From Acidobacteriota bacterium (GTDB lineage: Bacteria > Acidobacteriota > Terriglobia > Terriglobales > Acidobacteriaceae), in contig QIAN01000048.1 in the NCBI GenBank assembly GCA_003225005.1, forward strand, positions 62,001 to 126,000: DNA of 64,000 bases, written 5' to 3'. The notes under the pieces are model-generated. The model was not told where the DNA came from. It did not search any database and was given only the letters and a program-made list of their open reading frames with translations. Within the stretch, counting starts at the first letter, position 1; each line of letters starts with the position of its first letter. The translations under genes were made by a program, and so were the position numbers. Shown here in pieces: positions 14,273-50,708 of the stretch.

Positions 14273-14346
14273 TGGGCCGTCGACTAATGGTAGGTCAAGT
14301 GCCTTTGGAGCACTTTGTCTAGGTTCGAATCCTAGCGGCCCAGCCA
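14273..14346 (+). tRNA. tRNA-Gln (anticodon TTG)
   Basis: A cloverleaf can be drawn by hand. The acceptor stem TGGGCCG pairs with CGGCCCA (7 of 7), the D-loop contains ATGGTAGG, the anticodon stem AGTGC/GCACT encloses loop CTTTGGA with anticodon TTG, and the T-arm contains GGTTCGAATCC. Discriminator G and an encoded CCA follow (14343-14346). The T-first acceptor and the anticodon identify tRNA-Gln. It is flanked on both sides by imperfect palindromes. Confidence 0.95.
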
Positions 14347-36628: not shown

Positions 36629-36744
36629 TGCCCGTGTGCCTCGTATCAGTTTCCGAACTGGTGCTCGCACTCGATGAAGCTGACGCAACAAAAATCAAAG
36701 GCCGGACTGAGCCGGCCTTCGCCATTGATTTCGAATGCAGGGAA

Positions 36745-46710: not shown

Positions 46711-47157
46711 CGGCGTCCTGGATTGCATCGGGTCTGCACGAACCGCCGGGATGCCTCCGGTAGCCACACCGTGTCGGCACAGTTCTGCTGCGTACACCAG
46801 TTCGTTTGGCTGCTTTTACCCCCCGACCCTCCCGCCCGGACGTTTATTTCACCTTGAAGTGAACTGGGTAGGCAACCTGGGTAGGCTCTGATTGGCTTCG
46901 AAGGCCGTTTCAAAGCCGTCCTGCCCACAACGACACTTAGTGTCAACTTTGAGACGCCGAAAAGGCACCGCCGAGACCTTCCGGAGGCCGCGACCACCCC
47001 GGCTTTGTCGGCTACTTACGTTATTCACAGGGGTTTACGGCCCTAAACCCACTAGTTTCCCGTATAGGAACACTGGGACCAACTGCGGCAATCGGATTGC
47101 ATGCAACTTCCATAGCCGCCGATGAGTCTAATGGGCCATGGAGTATAGGTCGGAGTC
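46711..47157. other. Intergenic stretch without recognisable gene
   Basis: About 450 bases between the Trm112-like gene and the small gene at 47.2 kb. Short frames exist but look random. No tRNA, terminator with a T-tract, or repeat stood out. A promoter for the small gene presumably lies here. Confidence 0.45.
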
Positions 47158-47166
47158 GGAGGTGAT
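47158..47166 (+). promoter_or_regulatory. Strong Shine-Dalgarno site fixing the downstream start
   Basis: GGAGGTGAT is a near-perfect complement to the 16S rRNA tail. It lies seven bases before ATG 47174 and therefore favours that start over the upstream ATGs of the same frame (47138, 47165). Confidence 0.8.
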
Positions 47167-47173
47167 GACGGCC

Positions 47174-47413
47174 ATGATGAATGACAAAGACAGATTTACG
47201 GTGACAGAACTAACCGCGCTACGGAGCGACCTGCTCCAGAGCGGCATGATGGATTCTCGGGAGGCGGCCGAGCTCCTGCAGGTGTTTCTGATGGGGCGGG
47301 GGTACGGAGTTTCGCAGGCTGCGGCTTTGGATGCGGCCGGCCGGGTTGAAATGGCCGGATGCGCTCTGCCGGTCCTGCAGCACGAACTGGAGAATCTGGC
47401 GCTCGTGATGTAA
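47174..47413 (+). CDS. Small hypothetical protein
   Basis: A 79-residue cytoplasmic protein from ATG 47174, chosen by the ribosome-binding site. It contains LLQSGMMDSREAAELLQVFLMGRGYGVSQAAALDAAGRV, a helix-rich stretch, and ends in ELENLALVM. No domain is recognised. The strong translation signal suggests real, well-translated protein. The structured RNA candidate follows it on the same strand. Confidence 0.65.
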   Translation: MMNDKDRFTVTELTALRSDLLQSGMMDSREAAELLQVFLMGRGYGVSQAAALDAAGRVEMAGCALPVLQHELENLALVM

Positions 47414-47486
47414 GGATTTCATGCCGTGCGGGCTGATGCCCCCGCAGCGCAGCGGTTTAGAGTTAGAAAAAAACACAGAAGGCTTC

Positions 47487-47626
47487 GAACCGCTGGGCTC
47501 GGAAAATCAGCTTGGTGAGCCGAGAGCGGAGTAAACAAGATCCTGGGCTGGGCGACGAATCAAGTCGCCCGTACCAGTTCCACGTGAAAGAAAGCCGGGC
47601 AAACCAGCCCGGCTTTGTGGTTTTTT
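47487..47626 (+). ncRNA. Candidate structured RNA ending in an intrinsic terminator
   Basis: Three consecutive hairpins are seen on the plus strand. The first is two-tiered: CCGCT (47490-47494) with AGCGG (47525-47529), enclosing GGCTC (47496-47500) with GAGCC (47517-47521). The second is GGGCGAC-GAATCAA-GTCGCCC (47550-47570). The third is the terminator. No gene on this strand starts until 49314, so this may be a small RNA or the 3' end of the small gene's transcript. The 5' end is unknown. No known RNA class was recognised. Confidence 0.5.
47591..47626 (+). terminator. Rho-independent terminator
   Basis: A perfect 10-bp stem AAAGCCGGGC / GCCCGGCTTT (47591-47600, 47607-47616) with a six-base loop, followed by GTGG and six T residues. 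It is the strongest intrinsic terminator I saw in the window. Reading in the plus direction, it ends transcripts from the small gene or the RNA candidate. Confidence 0.88.
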
Positions 47627-47871
47627 GGCCTGCTGCCATTCCTGGCTGTTTCCGGCTTCGACGCTGGCCGGTTGTTATTATCCCGCCTGGTTCTACCGCT
47701 CACACACGCCAATGTTAATTTCTCGGTTTGCGTGGAGACAACCAGCTTCCCTCAATTTCCCGTCTGCCAGATCGAAGCAGATTGTCAGCGGGAGTATTTT
47801 AGGCAGAAATCCACAGGCAGAATCCTTCGCTCCGGTTGCTGCTGTGAGGTTGCTGCCTGGCTTGCGAAGCC

Positions 47872-49113
47872 CTACTCGTAGCGGAGGCTTTCTACGGGAT
47901 CGAGTTGGGCGGCGCGGGTGGCGGGAACGGTCCCGAAGATAATTCCAACCAACGACGATACGACGATGGCAATGATGGCGGAGAAGCCGGAGACCGGGAT
48001 ACGGTACTCGGTTAGAAAGCGAACTGAAAACGGAAGGGAAAGGCCGATGACGATGCCAACGACGCCTCCGATGAGGGAGATGAGAATCGCCTCCGCAAGA
48101 AATTGAAAGCGGATTTCACGGTTGGTGGCGCCAATGGCTTTACGGATACCGATCTCGCGTATGCGCGACGTCACGGTAGCCAGCATGATGTTCATGATGC
48201 CGATTCCACTTACCAGCAGTACGACCATGGCGACCAGCAGAAGCACCCAAGTCAATGCAGTCGCGGTTTTGTCGGCCACAGCAAGCAGCTCGGTAAGGTT
48301 CTCCACGGTATATACGGACTCGGACCGGTGACGCGACTGCAAGACGCGCTTGATCTGGCTGGTAGCTATGGGCACCATGGCAGGATCTTGCATCGAAAAA
48401 TACATCAGCTTCACGCTGGGAGTTTCGGTGAAATAGCGGCTCACGCTGAACGGAATCAGCATGGTGTTGCCGACCACCTCCGATTCTCCGAAGGTATTGA
48501 CGCGCTCTTTGAATGTCCCAATGATGGTAAAGGGCAGGCCGTTCAATTTAATTACCTTGCCCACCGCCGCTTGCTGGGAACCGTAAATCTCCAGCGCCAT
48601 CTTCTCGGTGATGACCCCGACTTTGTTGTGCGCCTGGGAGTCCTCGAGGTCGAAGAAGCGTCCTGCGAGAACCACCAGGTTGCGGACGCGCAGGTATTCG
48701 GGATACACACCGAGGATGGCGATGTCACGTTCCCGGCCACTGCCGACAGATATGCGTTCGTTGAGGTTGACGACCGGAGAGGCAGCGGCCACGCCGGGCA
48801 CTTCCTCCTGCACCGCTCGCAAATCTTCGATGGTCAGAGGGTCCGGCGTAGTACTGCTGATGCGCTGCGCCCCCCCCTGATATTGTGCGTAAATCAGGTT
48901 GGCGCCGATCGCCTGAATCTGGTTGAGTACGTATTGCCGGCCGGTCATGCCGATGGTGACAACCAGAATCAGAGAGGCGGTGCCGATCATCATGCCCAGT
49001 GCGGTGAGCGTGAAGCGCACCTTGTTACTGCAGAAAGTGTCGAAGGAAAAACTGAGAATCTCGCCGAAAGCCATTCGAGGCCGAAGTCGGTCGGGCATGA
49101 GGGCAGCAGCCAT
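47872..49113 (-). CDS. MacB-type ABC transporter permease
   Basis: A 413-residue protein with the MacB/FtsX topology: an N-terminal helix (VRFTLTALGMMIGTASLILVV, about residues 32-52), a large periplasmic domain (about 60-280), then three C-terminal helices. SRIREIGIRKAIGATNREI is the cytoplasmic coupling motif. No ATPase subunit or membrane-fusion partner lies next to it, so it must work with one encoded elsewhere. These systems move hydrophobic compounds, lipoproteins or peptides or transmit force. The start is uncertain (49113, 49095 or 49074). Confidence 0.9.
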   Translation of the reverse strand: MAAALMPDRLRPRMAFGEILSFSFDTFCSNKVRFTLTALGMMIGTASLILVVTIGMTGRQYVLNQIQAIGANLIYAQYQGGAQRISSTTPDPLTIEDLRAVQEEVPGVAAASPVVNLNERISVGSGRERDIAILGVYPEYLRVRNLVVLAGRFFDLEDSQAHNKVGVITEKMALEIYGSQQAAVGKVIKLNGLPFTIIGTFKERVNTFGESEVVGNTMLIPFSVSRYFTETPSVKLMYFSMQDPAMVPIATSQIKRVLQSRHRSESVYTVENLTELLAVADKTATALTWVLLLVAMVVLLVSGIGIMNIMLATVTSRIREIGIRKAIGATNREIRFQFLAEAILISLIGGVVGIVIGLSLPFSVRFLTEYRIPVSGFSAIIAIVVSSLVGIIFGTVPATRAAQLDPVESLRYE

Positions 49114-49313: not shown

Positions 49314-50708
49314 TTGGAGCGGATGGTCTCTCTCAAAACCGTGAGCGAAGGTGACGCGATTCCGGCCGGTGTGGCGACCAACCTCCGCAGGTCTTTGTTC
49401 TGGATGGTGGTTGTGGCGCTGGCTTTGCGGTTAGCAGTTGTGGCCTTTCTTTATCCCGAGAGACTGAGTCCCGACCGCGATCATTGGCGGTTCGCGGGAG
49501 AAACCGGGCGCATCGCACAATCGATTGTCGAGAGCCGAGGATTCAGCAGCCCCTTCCGGGGCTCAACCGGACCGACGGGAATTATGCCACCGATTTACCC
49601 CTCGCTGCTGGCAGGGGTCTTCCGGCTGTTCGGGATCTATACAAGGGCTTCTGCATTAGTGATGCTGTCGCTCGACAGCCTGTTCTCGGCACTAACTTGC
49701 ATTCCTGTATTTCTGATTGCACAAAGAAGCTTCCGGGGGCGGACCGCGGTCTGGGCGGGATGGGCGTGGACTTTCTTTCCCTACGCAATTTACTTCTCCG
49801 CGGATTTCATATGGGTCACTACGCTGGCCACGTTGATGCTGGCTTTGCTCTTCCTTGCCGCGTTACATCTTGAGGATTCAACCCGGGTCGCACTCTGGAT
49901 CGGCTGCGGAGTTTTGACGGGAATCGGCGGTCTTATGGACCCAGTCGTGTTGTCGGTGATGCCGCTGCTGGTGCTGTGGATGTGCTACCGGCGGCTTCAG
50001 AAAAAACAGCGCTGGTTCGTCCCCGCTCTGGCGGCGGCCCTCGCGTGCGGAGCCACGGTAGCACCGTGGATGATCCGCAACCATCGCGTCTTTCACACCT
50101 TCGTCCCTTTGCGTGACAATTTTGGACTCGAACTCTACGTGGGCAACAACGGAAGCACATGGCACTTTGCTCCTGCCGGGTTTCATCCTTCCAGTGCGGA
50201 CCGGGAGAGGAACGAGTATGTGCAGATTGGCGAACTGGCTTATATGAGGCACAAACAAGCGCAGGCGGTCGCGCTGATCAAGGCTCATCCTGGAGACTTT
50301 GCAGAGCTCACCCTGCGGCGAGCTCTTTACATGTGGACGAACTTCTGGAGCTTCAGTCGCCGCTATCTGGAAGCCGAACCGCTCGATCCGCCGAACATCT
50401 TTCTATGCACCGCGCTGACGGTGCTGGCGCTGGAAGGGTTGAAGCGGGCCTTTCAGCGCGGCGCGAGCATCGGTATGCCTTACGCCATCGCCCTCTTCTT
50501 TTTCCCTATGGTGTATTACGTCACGCACCCGCAAGACTATTATCGACGGCCCATTGATCCGATTTTTGTGGTGCTGGCGGCGTGCGCTGTAACATCCTGG
50601 ATGCAGGGTTCGCGCAAGACCGGCGCTGAGCCAACTTCAGACCCACCCGTCATTAGCTCAGCAACTTACTCCACGAAATCGAGACCGCCGGCAAGACCCA
50701 ACGAGTGA
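49314..50708 (+). CDS. Polytopic glycosyltransferase (GT39/ArnT-like)
   Basis: A 464-residue protein with about ten membrane segments. The first luminal loop contains an acidic pair region (ERLSPDRDHWRFAGE), followed by the PFRGSTGPTGIMPPIYPSLLA block typical of GT-C enzymes (dolichyl- or undecaprenyl-phosphate sugar transferases). It is expected to move a sugar from a polyprenyl carrier to an envelope acceptor. The downstream gene overlaps its stop by four bases (GTGA), showing translational coupling. The acceptor and sugar are unknown. ATG 49323 is an alternative start. Confidence 0.82.
   Translation: MERMVSLKTVSEGDAIPAGVATNLRRSLFWMVVVALALRLAVVAFLYPERLSPDRDHWRFAGETGRIAQSIVESRGFSSPFRGSTGPTGIMPPIYPSLLAGVFRLFGIYTRASALVMLSLDSLFSALTCIPVFLIAQRSFRGRTAVWAGWAWTFFPYAIYFSADFIWVTTLATLMLALLFLAALHLEDSTRVALWIGCGVLTGIGGLMDPVVLSVMPLLVLWMCYRRLQKKQRWFVPALAAALACGATVAPWMIRNHRVFHTFVPLRDNFGLELYVGNNGSTWHFAPAGFHPSSADRERNEYVQIGELAYMRHKQAQAVALIKAHPGDFAELTLRRALYMWTNFWSFSRRYLEAEPLDPPNIFLCTALTVLALEGLKRAFQRGASIGMPYAIALFFFPMVYYVTHPQDYYRRPIDPIFVVLAACAVTSWMQGSRKTGAEPTSDPPVISSATYSTKSRPPARPNE

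Follow-up and report, generated by a model that had tools for sequence, protein, structure and literature searches.

Sequence and comparative evidence support the reading that nucleotides 47487 to 47626 of the window, a 64,000-nucleotide stretch of an Acidobacteriota genome (contig QIAN01000048.1), hold a 3' untranslated region (3'-UTR) module and intrinsic terminator belonging to the mRNA of ORF91, a small gene whose stop codon lies 74 nt upstream; we put the probability of this at about 0.7. ORF91, nearly always a single-copy gene, would presumably be transcribed from a conserved promoter-like block, and the last ∼90 nt of its mRNA would form a two-hairpin 3' module composed of hairpin A, a CCAC/GTGG clamp, and hairpin B. 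Hairpin B and the T-run behind it would serve as an intrinsic terminator and would also shield the 3' end of the transcript, roles that we infer from the anatomy of the element. An earlier note had described the stretch as a candidate small RNA with three hairpins and had not mentioned the plus-strand ORF ending at 47413. The stretch did prove to be conserved, structured, and non-coding, with a terminator-like hairpin, but an independent three-hairpin gene was not supported, the element being tied to the 3' side of ORF91.

Features of the ORF91 locus and of two other sites (window coordinates unless a contig is named)
Feature	Coordinates	Strand	Remarks
Terminator of an HU-like gene (gene named by eye)	36696-36721	-	Conserved GAAGGCCGGC stem in genus; control
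Dyad GACAC..TTAG..TGTC	46931..46946		Upstream of ORF91; conserved; possible operator
Conserved upstream block	47011..47046	+	Consensus GCAACTTCCGATATTCACAGGGGTTTA; from genus conservation profile
Promoter-like block CGGCA-N6-ATTGCATGCAACTT-N16-GTCTAA	47086..47131	+	Conserved in genus; kept in other genera
ORF91 translation start region (AGGTCGGAGTCGGAGGTG ATG ACG GCC ATG)	47148..47176	+	Invariant, including the MTAM codons
ORF91	47165..47413	+	82 aa, or 91 aa if the upstream ATG at 47138 is used; coding by codon statistics
3'-UTR spacer	47414..47535	+	Unconserved, identity per 10 nt 0.09-0.49; contains the two-tiered first stem, 47490-47529
Hairpin A	47543..47577	+	From predicted fold and genus alignment
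Linker TTCCAC..	47578..47590	+	CCAC pairs with GTGG at 47617-47620; 98.3% of cells paired (29 rows)
Hairpin B (predicted intrinsic-terminator stem)	47591..47616	+	Perfect 10-bp helix; loop AAACCA, 47601-47606; genus consensus loop CAACCA
Terminator T-run	47621..47626	+	Six T, set 4 nt behind the stem by GTGG; weaker in several relatives
Convergent MacB/FtsX-type permease gene	47872..49113	-	Downstream neighbor outside the element; homologue downstream in 10 of 30 genus loci
Own-genome copy of the GATGTAACCGCATC/CCGGGCCAACCAGCCCGG place (L240)	G000:C238:75229-75280		Candidate second RNA

By its pattern of substitution, ORF91 is a real protein gene. When the last 73 codons of 27 homologues were compared with those of the window, there were 892 synonymous and 239 nonsynonymous codon differences, and changes at the first, second, and third codon positions numbered 256, 111, and 1013 (third positions, 1013/1380). 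The protein is 85 to 93% identical across 28 genus loci, with a short hypervariable part after the constant MTAM. It had no match in Pfam or NCBIfam; structure prediction returned a four-helix fold (mean pLDDT, 79.6) for which the Protein Data Bank yielded no look-alike at an E value of ≤0.001. ORF91 was present in 65 of the 299 class genomes searched, and 64 of these belong to the same family as the window. G293 and G343 have two matches each, and the other genomes have one. The gene upstream of ORF91 in the window is of the Trm112 type. A plasmid-borne origin was rejected (0 matches among 72,556 plasmid records).

The link between the gene and the element was established among Candidatus Sulfotelmatobacter and related Terriglobales genome sequences, mostly metagenome-assembled genomes in which binning errors are possible. 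For many of the genomes with an ORF91 locus, the isolate names suggest palsa and bog material. A blastn search with a 191-nt query gave matches in 42 of the 44 other genomes of the same genus (best E value per genome, ≤6e-4). The best matches, 24 to 97 nt long, fell within the last 97 nt of the query, and the match in G010 is a paralogous copy. At 29 of 30 genus loci, ORF91 lies upstream of the element on the same strand; at the 30th (L017), the locus is truncated by the contig start, 97 nt ahead of the element's end. A conservation profile over 28 loci, from which the truncated loci L004 and L017 were omitted, showed that ORF91 is conserved, that the spacer is not, and that conservation resumes at about 47536 and extends to 47622.

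Folding placed the structural signal in the same part of the stretch. Nucleotides 47487 to 47626 fold at −61.5 kcal/mol, compared with a mean of −44.3 for shuffled sequences (z, −4.61; 0/200 shuffles as good), and the predicted fold comprises a two-tiered stem (47490 to 47529), a hairpin with the loop GAAUCAA, and the terminator. All the parts named in the earlier note (the two-tiered stem, a 7-bp hairpin, a perfect 10-bp terminator, and six T residues) are indeed in the sequence. The signal is uneven, however, and concentrated in the last 91 nt: the core from 47536 to 47626 folded alone gave a z score of −5.61 (0/200 shuffles as good), whereas the first stem alone gave −1.98 (8/200). Furthermore, the 5' arm of the first stem re-pairs with AGCGGTT at 47451 once the preceding spacer is included in the fold. 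Loss of the stems in close relatives, which the earlier note had regarded as counting against an RNA, was found for the first stem, while the other two hairpins are kept. Hairpin A consists of a basal helix, CTGG/CCAG (47543 to 47546 with 47574 to 47577), and an upper helix, GGGCGAC/GTCGCCC (47550 to 47556 with 47564 to 47570), closed by a loop that reads GAATCAA in the window, GAAACAA in the genus consensus, and GGAACCAA in many other-genus elements.

Alignment A3, of 29 genus rows (L023, which has a loop insertion, was omitted), was used to evaluate the proposed structure. In it, 94.5% of the cells in the structure are paired, and five pairs changed on both sides (13 cells in the 29 rows), with compensatory changes in hairpin A; none of 500 shuffles attained either the covariation score or the percentage paired. 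The rows of A3, like those of alignment A1, were picked by similarity, so that their conservation is inflated, and hairpin B hardly varies and therefore yields little covariation information. We regard the covariation support for the structure within the genus as modest. Hairpin B occurs at one mismatch or fewer in 43 of the 45 genus genomes, mostly once, and is absent in 2; the explanation that it is a genome-wide repeat was rejected because it is found only one to three times per genome. In G037 (L013:765-1560, minus strand), a second copy of the element's 3' half (∼58 nt) follows small ORFs, as if a module had been inserted at the terminator. These ORFs resemble what we take to be a BrnT/BrnA toxin-antitoxin pair.

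To follow the element into other genera, we selected 80 named loci solely for their ORF91, irrespective of the element; many of them share genomes with the loci given G handles here. Within 420 nt of the ORF91 stop codon, hairpin B was found in 73 of the 80 at four or fewer mismatches and in 59 at one or fewer (49 exact, 10 with one, 5 with two, 3 with three, and 6 with four; 7 had none), and the reversed pattern was found in 0/80 of the same loci. Among the weaker matches, that at L159 is probably due to chance. A generic hairpin finder reported some hairpin in all 80 loci, with AACC in the loop of 54. Hairpin A has a sequence like GGGGACCTCGGAACCAAGTCGATCCCC at many loci of other genera and, compared by eye, is plausibly homologous to the GGGCGACGAATCAAGTCGCCC of the window, while one clade (e.g., L172 to L174, L183, and L190) has a different hairpin A sequence and another loop. 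In alignment A4 (19 other-genus rows), 86.1% of cells are paired and 30/500 shuffles attain the covariation score, a weaker result than in the genus; A4 omits 10 of 29 type II candidates that either align poorly or are of another type. A covariance model, R1, was built from 19 other-genus elements. R1 gave matches in 130 of 250 family genomes at an E value of ≤0.01, although many of the weaker matches are possibly chance. Among the best 30 R1 loci (one per genome), 29 sit 62 to 144 nt behind ORF91, and at L208 the element begins right at the ORF91 stop codon, with 62 nt from stop to terminator.

These positions bear on the explanation that the stretch is an independent small-RNA gene with a promoter of its own. 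Such a gene would account for a structured, conserved, terminator-bounded stretch with no plus-strand gene in the next 1.7 kb, but we consider it unlikely given the element's place 3' of ORF91 both in the genus loci and in the best loci of the family search, and given that the element can begin at a stop codon. The spacer, moreover, has no conserved block, and a search of 47414 to 47540, limited to sigma70-like promoters, found none. An independent small RNA may have a promoter inside ORF91 or one of another sigma type.

Rather than an RNA, hairpin B could be part of a short coding sequence. The frame AGC CGG GCN AAC CAG CCN GGC, which would give a peptide containing SRANQPG, is open, several other-genus elements have an ATG ahead of it, and two variable bases fall at wobble positions. 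However, in the exact and near-exact hairpins inspected, the third positions of AAC and CAG are invariant though free to vary, other loci lack a start or are frame-shifted, and the Thr, Ser, Val, and Leu variants are, by eye, stem-compensating or loop changes. Translation through hairpin B was rejected on the wobble positions, and we consider it extremely improbable.

The GC-rich 10-bp stem of hairpin B is followed by GTGGTTTTTT, as in an intrinsic terminator, while in several relatives the T-run is poor (CGTCTG or TGTCTG). Between 45500 and 50500, six simple terminator-like sites were found, compared with 5.9 expected from shuffles, and that of the element was the strongest of the six. The absence of a following plus-strand gene for 1.7 kb was confirmed from the ORF list, in which the next such gene starts at 49314 and has a Pfam match. 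Known Rho-independent terminators resemble the element in the GC-rich 10-bp stem, the 6-nt loop, the T-run, and the position 3' of a gene. The element differs from them in that its loop is conserved across genera, a second conserved hairpin and a linker lie upstream, and related copies lack the T-run.

A minimal explanation for these data could be that the stretch is a plain intrinsic terminator with an incidental hairpin, its conservation reflecting slow turnover of terminator stems. We give this explanation, which overlaps with the preferred one except for a second role, appreciable weight, short of even odds. The T-run and a purine-rich 5' flank fit it, as does the unconserved surrounding spacer. 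As a control, the terminator of the HU-like gene was treated in the same way as hairpin B; its region was matched in 43 of the 45 genus genomes, 20 of which were aligned. Mean conservation over 26 nt was 0.934 in the HU terminator (21 sequences) and 0.967 in hairpin B (29 sequences), with 16 and 20 invariant columns, respectively. Because the stem of this one control is nearly as conserved, stem conservation alone is not special, and much of the element's conservation may be ordinary terminator conservation. In contrast, AACC is invariant in the loop of 29/29 hairpin B rows, whereas five of the six loop columns of the control stand at 0.71 to 0.90 and its loop length varies. What stands out against the control (n = 1), as judged from these alignments, is the invariant AACC loop, hairpin A, and the linker. 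The loop and the conserved hairpin A and linker upstream of the stem argue against a plain terminator, as do homologous hairpins without a T-run at other loci.

At the other end of the proposed transcript, conservation extends across 46931 to 47176. In the blocks from 46931 to 46950, identity to the window is 0.67 to 0.69 and the majority letter reaches 0.75 to 0.82 (28 loci), and GACAC-N3-4-GTGTC is present in most of the ORF91 leaders inspected. A GCAACTTCCGATA..GGGGTTTA block is also part of this region. The promoter-like block may be read as ECF-type (GCAACTT/GTCTAA) or as sigma54-type (GGCA-N6-TTGCA), both being candidate assignments. An ECF regulon defined by exact GCAACTT-N15-17-GTCTAA was rejected, with 1 copy in the own genome against 3 for the reversed control. 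An RNA hairpin in the leader, CGGCAGC/GCTGCCG, has compensatory-looking changes in the genus but, by eye, is not kept in many other-genus leaders; for this reason, we set it aside and prefer the promoter reading. Around the translation start, the blocks from 47151 to 47170 stand at 0.98 to 1.00 (28 loci). Since both this region and the element are strongly conserved, pairing of the 3'-UTR with the gene's own start could be imagined, but the predicted duplex energies are no better than those of shuffled elements (mean z, 0.07; minimum, −1.89; 28 loci). This explanation was rejected on the mean z score, and we hold it to be very improbable.

Searches for known RNA classes did not account for the element, in agreement with the earlier note's remark that it matches none. 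Over the whole window, Rfam 15 at the gathering threshold gave a tRNA at 14273 to 14343 as its sole match, and up to an E value of 10 it gave nothing real in 47000 to 47900 or 46900 to 47180. Two matches below the gathering score were dismissed: Leu_leader (minus strand; E value, 0.083), which reflects the terminator-like hairpin, and SNORD41 in 47000 to 47900. Acido-1 RNA (RF01686), a non-coding RNA candidate of Acidobacteria (PMC2864571), shares its phylum with the element, but 47000 to 47900 has no Acido-1 match up to an E value of 10. An open-access PMC search found no paper on the element.

Related hairpins occur away from ORF91, and most of the additional hairpin B copies were inspected. 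Copies that resemble hairpin B and in part hairpin A, but have no T-run, lie by genes of the cbb cluster in a few Terriglobales genomes, mostly in their leaders (L096, L226, L227, L228, L233, L267, L268, L270, and L271). Form-I cbbL, the gene for the RuBisCO large subunit, has the hairpin in its leader in G034 (gene assigned by PF00016) and in G402 (gene assigned by eye, on a contig that stops within it). The G030 copy at L227 comprises both hairpins A and B; a CBS-domain gene precedes it, a pyridine-nucleotide reductase gene begins 27 nt after it, and the RuBisCO large subunit gene comes next (all three by Pfam name). The arrangement in G010 (L228) is the same by eye from homology to G030, with 17 nt to the reductase start. 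In G030, a ribulose-phosphate 3-epimerase gene is followed after ∼590 nt by another copy (L226). Among eight form-I cbbL loci found independently by PF00016, three (L267, L268, and L270) have a leader hairpin at two or fewer mismatches, and a fourth (L271) has, by eye, a degraded relative. No hairpin was found in the 330 nt examined at the other four, one of which, C152 of G030, has a copy one gene further upstream. All 26 RuBisCO-family loci were scanned on both strands, and 0/18 of the others had the hairpin at two or fewer mismatches on either. The leaders of L267, L270, and L271 are clearly homologous and are therefore not independent cases. In most of the cbb leaders, AACC is no more frequent than in shuffles; the one clear exception is L271, with AACC four times (4/500 shuffles).

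The paralogous copies in cbb leaders could suggest that the element itself acts in cis as a 5' leader, in the manner of a riboswitch or an RNA thermometer, on a gene downstream. Only those copies precede a co-directional gene, however, and the window element does not. With no plus-strand gene for 1.7 kb in the window, there is nothing downstream to regulate in cis; the next gene after the ORF91 locus is often convergent, a macB homologue lying downstream in 10 of 30 loci, and a terminator is present. We consider a leader role of the window element quite unlikely.

A further place in the genus has a similar look, with GATGTAACCGCATC followed by CCGGGCCAACCAGCCCGG and a T-run. The exact pattern is present in 8 of the 45 genus genomes, including the own genome. 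The loci considered for this candidate RNA are L237 to L244 and L300. A blastn search with 235 nt of this place matched in 11 of 45 genomes, of which G016 and G018 matched only the ORF91 hairpin, leaving nine. In five of the nine (G000, G011, G032, G021, and G001), recR lies upstream, RecR being the Pfam name in L239; recR was not found in the stretches of the remaining four. AACC is above shuffles at L240 (5 versus 1.05; 2/500 shuffles), L241 and L244 (0/500 each), L239 (6/500), and L243 (10/500) but not at L237, L238, and L242 (48 to 52/500). The window stretch itself is not enriched in AACC (2 versus 1.0 in shuffles; 130/500 attain it).

One could propose that the AACCA-loop hairpin is a binding site for a trans factor, an RNA-binding protein or an antisense RNA, common to three transcript kinds; we regard this as improbable. 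The candidate regulon would comprise the ORF91 mRNA tail, the second conserved RNA-like stretch, which has several AACC motifs and is recR-adjacent in 5/9 genomes, and the cbb leaders without a T-run, and it would be a CsrA/CsrB-like system with another motif, tied to carbon fixation. In RNAs of the CsrB/RsmZ type, a protein-binding motif is repeated in hairpin loops, and that motif is GGA. The element resembles them in that, in many relatives, two of its hairpin loops carry an A-A-(C/A/U)-C-A motif and differs from them in having AACC rather than GGA.

In the preferred reading of a 3'-UTR module and terminator, termination by itself would not require the conservation seen in hairpin A, the linker, and the AACC loop, and from this we infer a second function. 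It would most likely be that of a docking site, possibly one cut off as a 3'-UTR-derived, Hfq-dependent small RNA (sRNA), a suggestion from sequence that we make tentatively and think somewhat doubtful. The element lies between the stop codon and the terminator and shares the terminator of ORF91, which is the position of a 3'-UTR-derived sRNA. Conservation beyond the terminator is present in parts of 47536 to 47590 and not in the spacer, and hairpin A differs in one clade. Proteins of the Hfq family were found in all 21 genomes searched, the own genome included. Nine of 13 Sulfotelmatobacter genomes have the family above the cut-off at three places, one strong and two weak, and the other four at one or two; the places in the own genome are in G000:C189, C316, and C308. 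In a review, CpxQ (from the cpxP mRNA), SdhX, and FarS are given as 3'-UTR-derived sRNAs, and conservation 3' of the stop codon beyond the terminator is advised as a sign of such sRNAs (PMC9438474). Like these, as described there, the element is a conserved stop-to-terminator sequence ending at the gene's own terminator in a genome with the Hfq family. The same review has CpxQ more conserved than its own ORF (PMC9438474), whereas ORF91 is conserved too.

The analysis provides an RNA element that has no counterpart in Rfam and can be searched for; it lies at the end of a conserved gene of unassigned function in soil acidobacteria represented mostly by metagenome-assembled genomes. To our knowledge, there is little work on RNA regulation in the soil acidobacteria group that carries it. 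If the element is only a terminator, then the terminator stems of this genus are conserved and need to be controlled for. A 3' fragment, were one released, would be an example of a 3'-UTR-derived sRNA from a phylum distant from the model organisms, and the hairpins in RuBisCO leaders, should they be functional, would suggest that soil acidobacteria control carbon fixation at the level of RNA.
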